Shown piece after piece: positions 16,035-47,200 of a DNA stretch of 64,000 nt. The stretch spans positions 2,078,501 through 2,142,500 of the forward strand of contig NZ_CP010978.1 in NCBI RefSeq assembly GCF_000271665.2. Direction: 5' to 3'. How positions within the stretch are numbered: position 1 is the stretch's first letter; every line of letters begins with the position of its first letter. The stretch is from Pelosinus fermentans JBW45 (lineage in GTDB: Bacteria > Bacillota > Negativicutes > DSM-13327). Below the pieces are notes generated by a model. That model worked only from the letters and a program-made list of their open reading frames with translations. It was not told the DNA's origin and did not search any database. The position numbers were made by a program, and so were the translations under genes.

Positions 16035-17207
16035 TTGAATTGGCAAAGAAATCTCTGGTGCTTATGGAGCGGCTGTATTATCTCCAGCGCAAGCTACACT
16101 ATGCTTATACCATTTTTACCCTTATATCTTTTGGATCTAGGGGTAACCGGTACAGCTATCAATTTATGGTCAGCTATAGTGTTCTCAGTCACTTTTTTTA
16201 TTAGCGCCCTTATGTCACCCTATTGGGGACGGCAGGCTGATAAGTCAGGGAAGCGCCGAATGCTCATTCGCGCAGGTTTTAGTCTGGCAGCAGCCTATTT
16301 TCTAGGATCTCTTGTTAGGAACCCGATAGAATTGTTTATGGTTAGGATACTTCAAGGATTTGCTACTGGTTTCGTTCCTGCAGCATTGTCAATTGTTGCT
16401 TCTACCGCACCCAAAGAGAAAATAGGCTTTAGCCTGGGAATTATGCAGACAGCAACTCTCGTAGGGAGCATTATAGGACCGTTATTTGGTGGTACTTTGT
16501 CTCACTTATTTGGAATACGCATGTCGTTTACAGTAGCAGCTTGCATAATGTTCATTGGTACATTAGTTGTCAGCTTGTTCGTAACTGAGCCCACCCGTAA
16601 TGAAGTGCCACAAGCGAGTGGAGTAATCGATGATTTAAAAACTGCATTTAATAATTTTATTTTGTTAGAGATGCTAGTACTCTTATTTATTGCCCAAATG
16701 GCCGTTATGGTACTTCAACCGTTGATCACCTTGTATGTAGCTGAACTTCAGGGGCAATTGGAAGGTACAGTTTTAATAGCAGGCATCATCTTTAGTCTAG
16801 CAGGTATTGCTGGTGCCATTGCTGCACCTCTATGGGGGAAGGGCGGACAAAAGGCAGGGTTCTCTCAAGTTCTTATTAGTGGATTTCTTGGAGCTGGCCT
16901 ATTCAATAGTTTACAATTTTTTGTGGGAGATATCTGGAGTTTCGCTTTATTGCAATTTATCTTCGGTTTTTTTATTGCTGGCATTTATGTTGCTGTAAAT
17001 GCAATTGTGGTGGCTAATACCAATGAAGGTTTTCGAGGTCGCGCTTTTGGTCTTACCATGAGTGCCAATCAGTTAGGTTCGATGTTTGGTCCGCTAATCG
17101 GTGGAGTAGTTAGTGGGTGGATCGGTATTAAATTCATATTTATATATACGGGTATCTTTTTAATTATAGTTGGCTTTGTTATATGGAAGCAGCATGAAAA
17201 ATATTAA
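16035..17207 (+). CDS. MFS transporter, DHA1 drug-efflux type
   Basis: This 390-residue, 12-helix MFS protein carries the motif A-like GRQADKSGKRR after helix 2 and the efflux-type motif C (GSIIGPLFGG) in helix 5, matching MdtG/YttB-like exporters rather than the ACS uptake permeases nearby. The start is a TTG with an AGGGGTG site upstream; no in-frame ATG lies close. It may export a toxic intermediate or an unrelated drug. It stands alone between a hairpin and the CoA-transferase gene. Confidence 0.82.
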   Translation: MNWQRNLWCLWSGCIISSASYTMLIPFLPLYLLDLGVTGTAINLWSAIVFSVTFFISALMSPYWGRQADKSGKRRMLIRAGFSLAAAYFLGSLVRNPIELFMVRILQGFATGFVPAALSIVASTAPKEKIGFSLGIMQTATLVGSIIGPLFGGTLSHLFGIRMSFTVAACIMFIGTLVVSLFVTEPTRNEVPQASGVIDDLKTAFNNFILLEMLVLLFIAQMAVMVLQPLITLYVAELQGQLEGTVLIAGIIFSLAGIAGAIAAPLWGKGGQKAGFSQVLISGFLGAGLFNSLQFFVGDIWSFALLQFIFGFFIAGIYVAVNAIVVANTNEGFRGRAFGLTMSANQLGSMFGPLIGGVVSGWIGIKFIFIYTGIFLIIVGFVIWKQHEKY

Positions 17208-17277
17208 AAGGCATATTTCTACTTTTAGCTGGGGCTGTTTTTTTATAGCGCTGGATATTTCAGTTCGGAAAACTTAA
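17194..17277 (+). pseudogene. decayed aromatic leader-like ORF
   Basis: A 27-codon ORF begins inside the last codons of the MFS gene and encodes a FSWGCFF core. Bases 17224-17260 match the core of the aroK leader (about 26162-26196) at roughly 31 of 37 positions, including an exact ATAGCGCTGG, with a 2-nt insertion that destroys the Tyr-Ser-Ala-Gly-Tyr-Phe frame. No terminator follows. It looks like a remnant copy; translation is not supported. Confidence 0.4.
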
Positions 17278-26053: not shown

Positions 26054-26081
26054 TTGACAATTGTTGTTTATTTGGTATAAT
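26054..26081 (+). promoter_or_regulatory. promoter of the aroK leader
   Basis: TTGACA (26054-26059), 16-nt spacer, TATAAT (26076-26081) preceded by TGG (extended -10). It is near consensus, with the same spacing and extended -10 as the aroF leader promoter. Confidence 0.85.
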
Positions 26082-26113
26082 AAAAACAGTATTATGTTGA
26101 GCGGAGGCTTATA

Positions 26114-26251
26114 ATGATTACATTCTTAACTAAGAGATTTCAAAATCAATATTTTAGTTTTTTTAGTTGGGGTTATTTTTATAGCGCTGGCTATTTTGGG
26201 ATGTATCAAATGAATAGGCTGTTAAATGAGAACTTAAACACGAGCAGGTAA
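26114..26251 (+). CDS. aromatic-rich leader peptide of aroK (attenuator)
   Basis: A 45-codon ORF with SD GCGGAGG starts about 26 nt after the predicted transcript start. Eleven of residues 13-31 are Phe, Tyr or Trp (core FFSWGYFYSAGYF). A perfect terminator follows at 26273. AATGAG..CTTA (26225-26236) in the last codons can pair with TAAG.CTCATT (26278-26288) of the terminator's left arm. A ribosome stalled on aromatic codons would leave this pairing free and allow read-through into aroK; a ribosome at the stop codon would mask it and cause termination. This is the classic leader-peptide attenuation logic. Function is inferred from the layout. Confidence 0.8.
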   Translation: MITFLTKRFQNQYFSFFSWGYFYSAGYFGMYQMNRLLNENLNTSR

Positions 26252-26272
26252 ACAGATGACTGTTTTGTGATA

Positions 26273-26305
26273 AAAAATAAGACTCATTAGAGTCTTATTT
26301 TTTTT
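26273..26305 (+). terminator. attenuator terminator before aroK
   Basis: A 13-bp perfect stem (26273-26285 / 26290-26302) with loop ATTA, ending in a run of T. The left arm overlaps the antiterminator partner. Confidence 0.88.
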
Positions 26306-26429
26306 GTTTTATGGTATTGTGATTTACAAATTTTATAAGTGGAAAAACATAAGGAATTATGAACCCCAAAGACACAATCTGCTGCGGCACACAAGGGAGA
26401 ACATAAAAAATAGTAGGCGGTGTATTGTA

Positions 26430-26972
26430 ATGAAATTTCATAATAATATTGTGTTGATTGGTATGCCAGGTAGTGGTAAGACGTCTCTAGGTGCGATTAT
26501 TGCAGAACGATTAGAGCTTGATTTCTATGATATTGACCAGTATATACAGAAAAAAGAGAATAAGACTATTTCTGAGCTTTTTTTATTAGGAGAGTCACAT
26601 TTTCGTCAGATTGAAAGTAATGCAGTTCGTGAAGTTAGCAGCAAGAAACCAATTGTTATTGCTACTGGAGGTGGTGTAGTGACTCGTCCTGAGAATATAG
26701 CTGTATTACAGCAAAAAGGTACTATCTTTTATATTGACCGACCAATCGAAATGATAATAGAAACGATTGACGTTGCAGCTCGTCCGTTGCTAGCAGATAA
26801 TGTAAAGAGGATTTATAGCTTATACGAACAGAGAAAGCATTTATATGAGGGACATTGTCATTATCGAATTACCAACGGGCTGTCATTACATTCTGCAGCA
26901 GACCAGATTCTAAAAGTAATTATAAAAAGCCAGGATAGTGAGCAATTAGGCATTTCTGACAAATTTTTTTAA
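26430..26972 (+). CDS. aroK: shikimate kinase
   Basis: The ATG at 26430 has AGGCGGTG upstream and gives 180 residues, the usual length. A longer in-frame extension from a TTG at 26304 begins inside the attenuator terminator and is rejected. The P-loop GMPGSGKTS lies near residues 12-20, the shikimate-binding DIDQYI and FRQIES motifs and the GGGVVTRPEN loop follow, and RPLL marks the lid. It phosphorylates shikimate with ATP. It is controlled by the upstream aromatic leader and ends at a bidirectional terminator. Confidence 0.93.
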   Translation: MKFHNNIVLIGMPGSGKTSLGAIIAERLELDFYDIDQYIQKKENKTISELFLLGESHFRQIESNAVREVSSKKPIVIATGGGVVTRPENIAVLQQKGTIFYIDRPIEMIIETIDVAARPLLADNVKRIYSLYEQRKHLYEGHCHYRITNGLSLHSAADQILKVIIKSQDSEQLGISDKFF

Positions 26973-27088: not shown

Positions 27089-28156
27089 CTATAATACATC
27101 CCAAATAGCCATTGCAGCTGCAGCTTCGATAACAGGTATCGCACGATGGACAATACAAGGATCATGACGACCTTCCACCGTAATAGAGACATTTTCACCC
27201 TTTGCATTCACAGTACTCTGTTCTAAAGAAATTGAGGGGGTTGGTTTTATGGCTACACGAAAAATAAGAGGCATGCCATTGGAGATTCCTCCTAAGATTC
27301 CTCCATTGTGATTGGTGGAGGTCACAACCACATTGTCTTTGCTATACATCGCATCATTGGCCTCGCTGCCGCGCATCTGGGCAAAAGCAAATCCAGCACC
27401 GAATTCTACACCTTTAACGGCAGGGATAGAAAATAACAGATGTGCCAGTGTGCTTTCTAGGGAATCAAAGAAAGGATCACCTAGGCCGGCCGGCAGATGT
27501 ATGACAGTTGCTTCAATGATACCGCCGACAGAGTCTCCCGCAGTCTTGGCTGAGAGAATGCATTGTTGCATTGATTCGCCCACAGCAGGGTCAAGTACAG
27601 GGAATGATTTTGTTTTTAATTGTTCTAGTATTGTCTGGTCAATTGTAACCGCATCAAATTGAGATTCTGAAATAGAAGCGATACGCTGGATATGAGAACC
27701 AATATGAATGTTTTGTTGCCTCAAAAGCTGCTTAACAATCGCACCGGCGAATACGAGAGGGGCCGTGAGGCGGCCGGAGAAGTGTCCACCGCCTCGTAAG
27801 TCATTAAAGTGATTGTATTTTATAGAGCCAGTATAATCCGCATGTCCAGGACGAAATTTCCATGCTAAGGATTCATAATCAGCAGATCTTTGATCTTTAT
27901 TTTCGATGATGGAACATAGTGGGCTTCCTGTTGTTTTGCCATTTAAAAAGCCACTCCAAATCGTAAATGCGTCTTTTTCATTGCGTGCTGTTGATAAGGG
28001 ACTTTTCCCAGGGGCGCGACGCTCTAGCTCCCGAGTTACTTCAGCTAAGTCAATTGCGAAACCGGGCGGTAATCCGTCAATGGTAATACCGATCCCCTTT
28101 CCGTGACTTTCGCCAAAAATAGTATACTGAACCTTTTTACCCCATGAGCCACTCAT
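27089..28156 (-). CDS. aroC: chorismate synthase
   Basis: This 355-residue protein has the AroC signatures GESHGKGIGITIDG at the N-terminus, FRPGHADYTGSIKY, the RGGGHFSGRLTAPLV region and GRHDPCIV..IPVIEAAAA at the C-terminus. It makes chorismate from EPSP with reduced FMN. It lies 24 bp downstream of aroF in one minus-strand operon, with an SD (GGAGG) before the ATG. Regulation is through the aroF leader attenuator. Confidence 0.96.
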   Translation of the reverse strand: MSGSWGKKVQYTIFGESHGKGIGITIDGLPPGFAIDLAEVTRELERRAPGKSPLSTARNEKDAFTIWSGFLNGKTTGSPLCSIIENKDQRSADYESLAWKFRPGHADYTGSIKYNHFNDLRGGGHFSGRLTAPLVFAGAIVKQLLRQQNIHIGSHIQRIASISESQFDAVTIDQTILEQLKTKSFPVLDPAVGESMQQCILSAKTAGDSVGGIIEATVIHLPAGLGDPFFDSLESTLAHLLFSIPAVKGVEFGAGFAFAQMRGSEANDAMYSKDNVVVTSTNHNGGILGGISNGMPLIFRVAIKPTPSISLEQSTVNAKGENVSITVEGRHDPCIVHRAIPVIEAAAAMAIWDVL

Positions 28157-28180: not shown

Positions 28181-29194
28181 TTAGATCGTGCGATTTTCAA
28201 TTTTAGCAATCTGCGCTAAGGAACCCATCAATGAGGCGAAACGTTCAGGTGTAATGGATTGTGGTCCATCACAGCTTGCATTGGCAGGATCGTTGTGTAC
28301 TTCAATAATCAATCCATCAGCACCGACGGCAATGGATGCCTTTGAAAGGGCCTCGACCATCCACCATTTCCCCGCAGCATGACTAGGATCAATAATAACA
28401 GGAAGATGGCTTAATTTCTTTATAGCGAGTACAGCACTCAAGTCTAGAGTATTACGGGTATAGGTTTCAAAAGTGCGAATGCCTCTTTCGCATAAAATAA
28501 CATTGTCGTTACCTTCAGCCATAATATACTCTGCTGACATAAGTAATTCTTCAATGGTAGCACTTAATCCTCGTTTTAATAAAATTGGTTTATTAGTTTG
28601 TCCTACTGCTTTCAACAGGTCAAAGTTTTGCATATTTCTTGCACCAATTTGAATAATATCAACATCTTCAACGAATTTATCCAGTTTGCTTACGGACATA
28701 ATCTCAGAGACAATTGGCAGCCCTGTTTCTGCTCTGGCAATTTTCAATAATTCCAGTCCTTCTTCTTTTAAGCCCTGGAAACTATAAGGTGATGTTCTTG
28801 GTTTGTAAGCTCCGCCACGCAAGAAGCCGGCACCTGCTGCTTTGACTTGATTCGCTACAGACAAAATTTGACTCTCGCTTTCAACCGAGCAAGGACCAGC
28901 AATAATTGTTAATTTATTACCGCCGATGGTTTGATTTCCAATTGGAATGACTGTATCTTCTGGATGAAAGACTCGATTGGCCTTCTTATAAGGTTCCTGT
29001 ACAGATAATACTTTTTCTACATAGTTTTTACTTGCCAGCTTATCTTTATCAAGTTTATGAGTGCTGCCAACTACGCCTATAATCGTCTGAAATTCCCCAT
29101 ACGTAGGCCAAGCACTGCAGCCACCTTTTTCTAGTTCTGCCTTTAACTCTTCAATTTGCTTTTTTGTTACAGACGGATGTAATACGATAACCAT
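28181..29194 (-). CDS. aroF: 3-deoxy-7-phosphoheptulonate (DAHP) synthase
   Basis: This 337-residue enzyme is of the type I-beta class with an N-terminal ferredoxin-like regulatory domain (residues about 1-65) joined to the KDO8P/DAHP TIM barrel. Motifs IIAGPCSVES, GGAYKPRTSPYSFQG, LLKRGLSAT and IDPSHAAGK hold the PEP, E4P and metal residues. The N-terminal domain suggests allosteric inhibition by aromatic amino acids, as in related enzymes. It is first gene of the aroF-aroC operon. Transcription is gated by an aromatic leader and terminator 118 bp upstream. SD GGGGG precedes the ATG. Confidence 0.95.
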   Translation of the reverse strand: MVIVLHPSVTKKQIEELKAELEKGGCSAWPTYGEFQTIIGVVGSTHKLDKDKLASKNYVEKVLSVQEPYKKANRVFHPEDTVIPIGNQTIGGNKLTIIAGPCSVESESQILSVANQVKAAGAGFLRGGAYKPRTSPYSFQGLKEEGLELLKIARAETGLPIVSEIMSVSKLDKFVEDVDIIQIGARNMQNFDLLKAVGQTNKPILLKRGLSATIEELLMSAEYIMAEGNDNVILCERGIRTFETYTRNTLDLSAVLAIKKLSHLPVIIDPSHAAGKWWMVEALSKASIAVGADGLIIEVHNDPANASCDGPQSITPERFASLMGSLAQIAKIENRTI

Positions 29195-29311: not shown

Positions 29312-29341
29312 GTAAAAAAAATAAGACTCAAATGAGTCTTG
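29312..29341 (-). terminator. attenuator terminator before aroF
   Basis: On the minus strand AAGACTC/GAGTCTT (29323-29329 / 29334-29340) is followed by ATTTTTTTT. The stem sequence nearly equals that of the aroK attenuator. Confidence 0.85.
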
Positions 29342-29366: not shown

Positions 29367-29528
29367 TTATCGGATTGCTGTTAGTTGACATTTCCATCTA
29401 TAATGCTCATTGAAAAACCATATATTCACTTTTTCCCATCCGAAAAAGTCGAAGCTAAAAAAGTAGCTCCAACCAAAAAAGTAAAAATATTGTTTTTGTT
29501 CGATGGCTTTATAGGTTAGATGTGTCAT
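29367..29528 (-). CDS. aromatic-rich leader peptide of aroF-aroC (attenuator)
   Basis: A 53-residue ORF begins at the ATG whose first base is 29528, 9 nt after CGGAGG; a longer ORF from 29576 would start inside the -10 box and is rejected. Eighteen of residues 14-45 are Phe, Tyr or Trp. In the RNA, AAUGAG and AGAUGG near the end of the ORF can pair with CUCAUU of the terminator left arm and CCAUCU just before it (plus-strand positions 29406-29411 with 29331-29336; 29394-29399 with 29345-29350). This would form an antiterminator when a ribosome stalls on the aromatic run. No protein function is expected. Confidence 0.8.
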   Translation of the reverse strand: MTHLTYKAIEQKQYFYFFGWSYFFSFDFFGWEKVNIWFFNEHYRWKCQLTAIR

Positions 29529-29574: not shown

Positions 29575-29602
29575 ATTATATCAAAGTATTGAAAAGTGTC
29601 AA
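29575..29602 (-). promoter_or_regulatory. promoter of the aroF leader
   Basis: On the minus strand TTGACA (29597-29602), 16-nt spacer, TATAAT (29575-29580) preceded by TGA (extended -10). Confidence 0.85.
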
Positions 29603-29731: not shown

Positions 29732-29756
29732 GTGCCTTAATAGAATGTGTAATCCG

Positions 29757-30033
29757 CTATGAGCAGGAGAAGTACATATACGAACTTTGGATCAGCGAGT
29801 CGGTGACCAGGCAACTGGAGGTGTGATGACCGACCCAAAGAGTCTATGGAATGGGCCTGTGAGCTGCTCACTGAACGCAATACGTCAGTAGGATGAGTCG
29901 GTTGCCCCCGTTATTGGGCTAGGGTATCAGATGTAGTATCTCGTACCTGAGTAGAGGGAAAGCATTAGCTTTCTAAATTAGGGTGGTATCGCGAATCATT
30001 TCGCCCCTTTCAGGGGGTGGAATGGTTTTTTTT
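29757..30033 (+). ncRNA. T-box riboswitch, tryptophan specifier
   Basis: Stem I is closed by GAGCAG (29761-29766) and CTGCTC (29864-29869). Its distal helix pairs CTTTGG with CCAAAG and GTCGGT with ACCGAC. AGTA on the 5' side faces GAA-TGG-GCC on the 3' side, giving specifier TGG at 29852-29854. The T-box antiterminator sequence AGGGTGGTATCGCG lies at 29980-29993. The terminator stem 29994-30007/30014-30027 ends in a T-run. Uncharged tRNA-Trp would open expression of the trp operon. Confidence 0.93.
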
Positions 30034-46999: not shown

Positions 47000-47175
47000 T
47001 GCGTGAGATAGCACTTCATCTAAATGAATCTTTTAGATGACAGTCTTGTACTTATTTAATACAAGCCCAACAACAAGAAAAATGGCATTTCCTTTTGTTT
47101 CGGCAATTATTCCTTTCTATATAGTTCATTGCTGCCAGCTCACTATATATACTGATAATATTTGCGCCTCTATAA
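47000..47175 (-). ncRNA. lysine riboswitch (L-box)
   Basis: In minus orientation the conserved L-box blocks appear in order: AGAGGCGC, then GAGCTGGCAGCAA, TTGCCGAAAC, TTGTTGGGC, ACTGTCA and finally AAGTGCTATCTCA. The 3' end pairs with the 5' end (GTGA..ATAG) as helix P1 or with the terminator. High lysine should close P1 and permit termination, lowering uptake. Confidence 0.92.
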
Positions 47176-47200
47176 TCACAACATATTTAATTTCTTGCTT

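Follow-up and report, generated by a model that had tools for sequence, protein, structure and literature searches.

Aromatic leader peptides upstream of aroF and aroK in Pelosinus and other Bacillota: candidate ribosome-mediated attenuators with a hairpin in the sensor codons

How is the shikimate kinase gene aroK controlled in Pelosinus fermentans JBW45? In the 64,000-nucleotide stretch of DNA analysed here (the window), aroK is preceded by a small open reading frame (ORF) crowded with aromatic codons and by a terminator, and a preliminary description of the sequence had proposed attenuation by an aromatic leader peptide. The consensus promoter, the Shine-Dalgarno (SD) sequence with its 45-codon ORF and the perfect terminator on which that proposal was built were all confirmed, in the following layout of the aroK leader.

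26054..26081, + strand: promoter, sigma-70-type, TTGACA-16-TATAAT with a TG-extended -10 (12/12 consensus)
26103..26107, + strand: Shine-Dalgarno GGAGG of the leader ORF
26114..26251, + strand: leader ORF of 45 aa, MITFLTKRFQNQYFSFFSWGYFYSAGYFGMYQMNRLLNENLNTSR, ATG at 26114 (ORF list, homologues)
26150..26206, + strand: sensor codons 13-31, 11 Phe/Tyr/Trp per 19 codons (per-column conservation)
26164..26193, + strand: P1, RNA hairpin of the sensor codons, 26164-26175 with 26182-26193, one G-G mismatch
26225..26236, + strand: putative antiterminator 5' arm A (AATGAG..CTTA)
26245..26269, + strand: helper hairpin between A and B, AAACAG/CTGTTT core (predicted fold)
26272..26303, + strand: intrinsic terminator, 14 bp, loop of 4, then a T-run
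26430..26972, + strand: aroK, shikimate kinase, putative regulated gene (Pfam SKI 7e-39)

The promoter, whose -10 element is preceded by TG, is the sole 12/12 consensus match within 5 kb, and transcription would start near 26088. The 5' arm of the terminator, B (26272-26285), is common to terminator and antiterminator. In the minimum free energy (MFE) structure of an RNA that stops within the terminator loop, 26225-26230 pair with 26283-26288 and 26233-26236 with 26278-26281, which bears out the antiterminator proposed earlier between 26225-26236 and 26278-26288, overlapping the left arm of the terminator. The fold of the leader is beyond chance (z -3.3), and the single-sequence fold includes P1.

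A second leader, homologous to the first and absent from the preliminary description, precedes aroF, the gene of DAHP synthase, on the minus strand of the window.

29575..29602, - strand: aroF leader promoter, TTGACA-16-TATAAT
29367..29528, - strand: aroF leader ORF of 53 aa, MTHLTYKAIEQKQYFYFFGWSYFFSFDFFGWEKVNIWFFNEHYRWKCQLTAIR
29446..29475, - strand: P1 hairpin of the aroF leader (covariance model match 29498-29430, 74.6 bits)
29406..29411, - strand: putative antiterminator arm AATGAG
29323..29340, - strand: terminator AAGACTC-ATTT-GAGTCTT, then a T-run
28181..29194, - strand: aroF, DAHP synthase with a ferredoxin-like domain
27089-28156, - strand: aroC, next after aroF

The two leader peptides are 43% identical, and a six-frame search of the whole genome with the aroF leader as query returned the aroK leader at E 5.8e-4 and no other match. 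The aroF leader has additional aromatic codons immediately before A, and a ribosome stalled there would cover A. Other RNA elements seen in the window are a T-box at 29750-30011 (+), which lies before a trpDFCBAEG-pheA run adjoining aroF and has UGG in the specifier position (codon taken from the alignment), and a lysine riboswitch at 47001-47180 (-; 125 bits) before an amino-acid permease-like gene.

To place the two leaders in a family, we searched 380 Negativicutes genomes with a profile made from them and then with one made from 32 leaders. The second profile had a match at E<=0.02 in 115 of the 380 genomes, mostly far below that value; among the class-wide matches at E 0.01-1 in the search with the first profile, many arose by chance (e.g., L048, L059 and L064). 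The profile searches yielded 104 leader ORFs before shikimate-pathway genes, nearly always aroF, with a few before aroA, tyrA, aroB or aroK. Most are placed directly upstream of the target gene, and 96 of the 104 passed the SD score. Judged from gene context, the general target of the family is aroF. The earlier assignment of the leader to aroK is supported for this locus but does not extend to the family, since an aroK leader of its own occurs in only three of eight Pelosinus genomes, that of JBW45 included. Three further Pelosinus genomes have aroF, aroC and an aroK in one run after a single leader. Because the aroK leader is nearer to that of an aroA-aroC-aroK run in genome G318 (score 114) than to the aroF leader of its own genome (63), it probably derives from the leader of an operon of the aroA-aroC-aroK kind. 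Two tandem aroF genes follow one leader in several genomes of family f2 (L076, L078, L082, L084, L092 and L105). The JBW45 genome also encodes a second shikimate kinase, 39% identical and adjoining aroB (L123, G000:C1:2525692).

Such leaders extend beyond this lineage: with the same profile they were also detected upstream of aroF or aroB in further Bacillota. In a leader-independent check on 80 loci picked by AroF alone, the profile matched a leader at E<0.01 in 24, among them loci of Clostridium magnum, C. cuniculi, Oscillibacter and a Fusobacteria MAG. A BLAST search of a plasmid collection with the aroK leader returned one record, a 2.6-Mb replicon of Acetoanaerobium noterae. What matched there is an aromatic leader core upstream of aroF; this leader has P1 and AATGAG, its terminator includes CTCATT, and it is an independent case. 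The record itself (NZ_CP154629.1, L257) has 4 annotated features and, although filed as a plasmid, may be a mislabelled chromosome.

The family allowed comparative tests of the terminator and antiterminator. An intrinsic terminator within ~130 nt of the stop codon was present in 104 of 104 leaders, compared with 83 of 400 control windows. The aromatic run is followed by a segment A, often xTGAG, whose sequence is complementary to the terminator left arm B. Among the representatives, 61% have their best match to B at 26-33 nt behind the core, versus 8.6% after shuffling, and the distance of A to the stop codon varies widely over the family. The xTGAG motif occurs in 50 of 101 leaders (7.6% expected), mainly in two reading frames, which argues that it is kept as RNA and not as peptide. 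Arms that deviate from it change together (AGAACCTTT with AGAGGTTCTT in L037, CTGAG with CTCAG in L108). In a swap test with 70 representatives, the upstream region of a leader paired better with its own terminator arm than with those of others (z -6.5; 0 of 20,000 permutations). Aligned leader ORFs in Negativicutes with covariation of terminator and antiterminator, named by the preliminary description as a check on its proposal, were found, mostly before aroF. Homologues that retain the terminator without the aromatic codons, which it had named as contrary evidence, were not seen among the leaders found, most of which were recovered through their aromatic peptide. The comparison of coding constraint among close Pelosinus leaders gave 0-4 synonymous and 1-3 nonsynonymous codon differences per pair.

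At the level of single loci, a shuffle test of A:B showed that 5 or fewer of 100 shuffles did as well as the natural sequence in only 15 of 68 loci, and for aroK 22 of 100 shuffles of the upstream sequence were as good, its own match not being clearly better. The candidate aroK antiterminator is weak, with a duplex energy of -6.6 kcal/mol versus -14.4 kcal/mol for the terminator, and the case for it is one of family comparison. In the predicted folds, the aroK leader has a helper hairpin between arms A and B and the aroF leader a different one; both would bring A and B together, and that of aroK would shorten the loop of the antiterminator.

Codon use and mutual information revealed an RNA helix, P1, within the aromatic run. 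The Ser codons of the run are nearly always AGC, at one column in 68 of 70 cases compared with 29% AGC in aroF, and the Gly codons at the same column are GGC in 30 of 30. Mutual information computed over 49 aligned cores yielded nested pairs that share one constant position sum. Over the 12 pairs of P1, 83.5% of cells are paired versus 28-46% for slid versions of the helix, and the covariation score is 0.354 versus at most 0.181, comparisons that favour P1 because it was derived from the alignment on which it was scored. Both sides have changed in 7 of the 12 pairs, with compensatory codon swaps in register (Trp/Ala, Gln/Val and Tyr/Tyr codon pairs). A codon-permutation test provided a separate check: in all 70 representatives, P1 exceeded its codon-shuffled controls in stability (p<=0.05). 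RNAalifold, unaided, predicted 8 of the 12 pairs. A covariance model of P1 finds both window leaders (E 2e-12 and 1e-11), and over 398 genomes of the phylum it gave 18 matches, 16 of them adjoining aroF, aroB or aroK. Of 22 held-out cores outside Negativicutes, 11 have a hairpin that is more stable than codon-shuffled versions at p<=0.05, tested over a wider span than in the main set; support for the predicted P1 outside Negativicutes is moderate. P1 overlaps neither A nor B and hence cannot mask A. Pause hairpins are known from the trp and his leaders, and by analogy P1 is probably a pause hairpin for RNA polymerase.

A third match of the P1 model in the window, at 17205-17273 (+; 35.5 bits, E 1.6e-4 in the window and 0.014 genome-wide), has an MFS transporter gene on one side and a CoA-transferase-like gene on the other and resembles a frame-shifted relic of an aromatic leader. 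The relic was not found in nine related genomes.

We then modelled how the position of a ribosome bears on the A:B pairing, on the assumption that the first free base lies 15 nt downstream of where the A-site codon starts. The aroK scan covers codons 9 onward of an RNA ending in the terminator loop. The mean P(A:B) was 0.76-0.95 at codons 9-33, 0.58 at codon 34 and 0.03 at codon 35; the last aromatic codon is codon 31, and the switch follows 2 to 4 codons later. A modelled ribosome stalled at any aromatic codon from the ninth codon on leaves the antiterminator free, as the preliminary description had argued. Its further claim that a ribosome at the stop codon covers the antiterminator fits aroK poorly, for such a ribosome barely covers arm A and sits between A and its partner; in relatives, the stop codon mostly lies 9-63 nt beyond the start of arm A. 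Over 70 leaders, upstream pairing of the terminator left arm was 0.66 with the ribosome in the core versus 0.30 at the stop codon (Wilcoxon 2e-12), and 0.43 with shuffled upstream sequence. A:B is also predicted without any ribosome in the aroK leader (0.88) before the right arm of the terminator is made. In the full aroK transcript, the terminator wins at equilibrium for every ribosome position (P 0.95-0.96), and control would therefore have to be kinetic, decided during transcription.

Other explanations of these features were weighed. The interspersed Ser and Gly residues are strongly conserved across the class, as would be expected if a nascent peptide of the type [SG]xG[YF]F stalled the ribosome via the exit tunnel and sensed free aromatic amino acid in the manner of TnaC or SecM. 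As the leading explanation, such an arrest peptide is rejected in view of the RNA helix revealed by codon use and mutual information. P1 accounts for the Ser and Gly residues, given that their codons are constrained to AGC and GGC, and Phe and Tyr are interchangeable at most core positions. In addition, FGKA-type leaders of Clostridia (L141, L154, L189 and L192) have lost the motif, yet the hairpin is still predicted to fold in the same place. We consider an arrest-peptide sensor very unlikely.

That P1 is the best supported RNA element, with a model that by itself retrieves aro leaders from 398 genomes, raises the question of whether the hairpin is the main switch, bound by a protein or a small molecule as in TRAP-like or riboswitch-like systems, with the ORF secondary. 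It lies, however, entirely within a conserved reading frame that has a Shine-Dalgarno sequence and no stops, its loop holds little beyond Phe and Tyr codons and varies in length by one codon, it has no Rfam aptamer match, and it is separate from both A and B, which makes this role highly improbable. The strength of the terminator, always the most stable structure at equilibrium, would also suit a constitutive terminator after a small ORF without regulatory coupling, where the leader might, for example, aid translation by reinitiation. Such an arrangement leaves unexplained why A, though it occurs in different reading frames, stays at almost one offset and changes in concert with the terminator, and why the aromatic content is kept across the class, and we find it scarcely credible.

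The best reading of the family, and in our view a highly probable one, is ribosome-mediated transcription attenuation by an aromatic leader peptide that senses charged Phe/Tyr tRNA; homologues keep ORF, terminator and antiterminator, in support of the mechanism first proposed for aroK. The support is computational throughout and consists of the conservation of ORF, P1, terminator and A:B, together with the geometry. From it we infer leader translation in vivo, polymerase pausing, a response to starvation and kinetic rather than equilibrium control. The leader ORF would be translated behind RNA polymerase, and the aromatic codons would fold as P1, probably pausing the polymerase until the first ribosome melts the hairpin. 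When charged Phe- or Tyr-tRNA is low, the ribosome would stall in the aromatic run with its leading edge upstream of A, and A would pair with B once B emerges, allowing readthrough into aroK or aroF. With ample charging, the ribosome would be on A or between A and B as B emerges, A:B would not form, and B would pair with C to cause termination.

As to what is sensed, the mixed Phe/Tyr/Trp signal suggested earlier holds for two of its components. Tyr is present in 101 of 101 leaders and Phe in 100, while Trp is missing in 16, the median number of aromatic residues per leader being 11. By this conservation, Phe and Tyr are the putative sensor residues and Trp appears dispensable. A division of labour is likely, in which Trp would be sensed by the T-box for its branch and Phe/Tyr by the leader peptide for the common pathway. 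A broader proposal, for and against which we see equal grounds, is that the leaders form an old, widespread and so far undescribed family of Bacillota in which one stretch of RNA serves as both Phe/Tyr sensor and pause hairpin, the ribosome decides the fate of that hairpin, and leaders have been exchanged with T-boxes at the same gene. If the attenuation reading is true, entry into the shikimate pathway in Negativicutes and parts of Clostridia has a proposed control that common annotation libraries lack. Leader peptide and T-box alternate at the same gene, aroF, and codon choice would answer to amino-acid sensing and to an RNA hairpin at once, two constraints separable by synonymous recoding.

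The family is apparently uncatalogued. Neither window leader matches an Rfam family at or near the gathering score, the Phe and Trp leader families included, or the T-box covariance model RF00230; five leaders searched against Pfam and NCBIfam fell into no family of either, with one sub-threshold match put down to chance. A search of the open-access literature, with subscription journals mostly outside its range, found no paper describing this leader family. Several aroF genes of family f20 and of genome G064 (family f6) have a T-box in place of the leader peptide (L208-L210, L213, L214, L220 and L223), and no aromatic leader was seen in the nine f20 genomes inspected. The T-box at these aroF genes also senses tRNA charging, but with RNA as the sensor where the leaders described here would use the ribosome.

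The leaders resemble trpL, pheL and hisL of Proteobacteria in having an ORF with codons for the end product, a terminator and an antiterminator that share an arm, and a hairpin in the leader coding region. They differ in that both arms of the first hairpin lie within the sensor codons and exclude the antiterminator arm, and in that A keeps a fixed distance to the core within the ORF instead of lying around the stop codon. The four-segment topology of trp and his leaders, in which segment 2 is common to 1:2 and 2:3, is not seen, P1 (26164-26193) and A (26225-26236) being separate; in the trp leader 1:2 masks segment 2, whereas here A:B is predicted even without a ribosome.

In Firmicutes, leader-peptide attenuation has been described for his and branched-chain genes, in places replacing T-boxes; these leaders concern other amino acids, and the accessible parts of the reports mention no sensor-codon hairpin (PMC2965389, PMC9413887, PMC5794164). 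The nearest known analogues are two aroF leaders, compared here by their published descriptions. That of Corynebacterium glutamicum shares the target gene but is actinobacterial and short, with the minimal aromatic run Phe-Tyr-Phe (PMC4046766). Upstream of Acholeplasma aroF, uORFC-13-1 has a similar layout at the same gene: a uORF with Phe codons (at least one in each case), a further base-paired substructure and a terminator, for which attenuation was proposed on the basis of 24 representatives, all from Acholeplasma and environmental sequences (PMC8632094).
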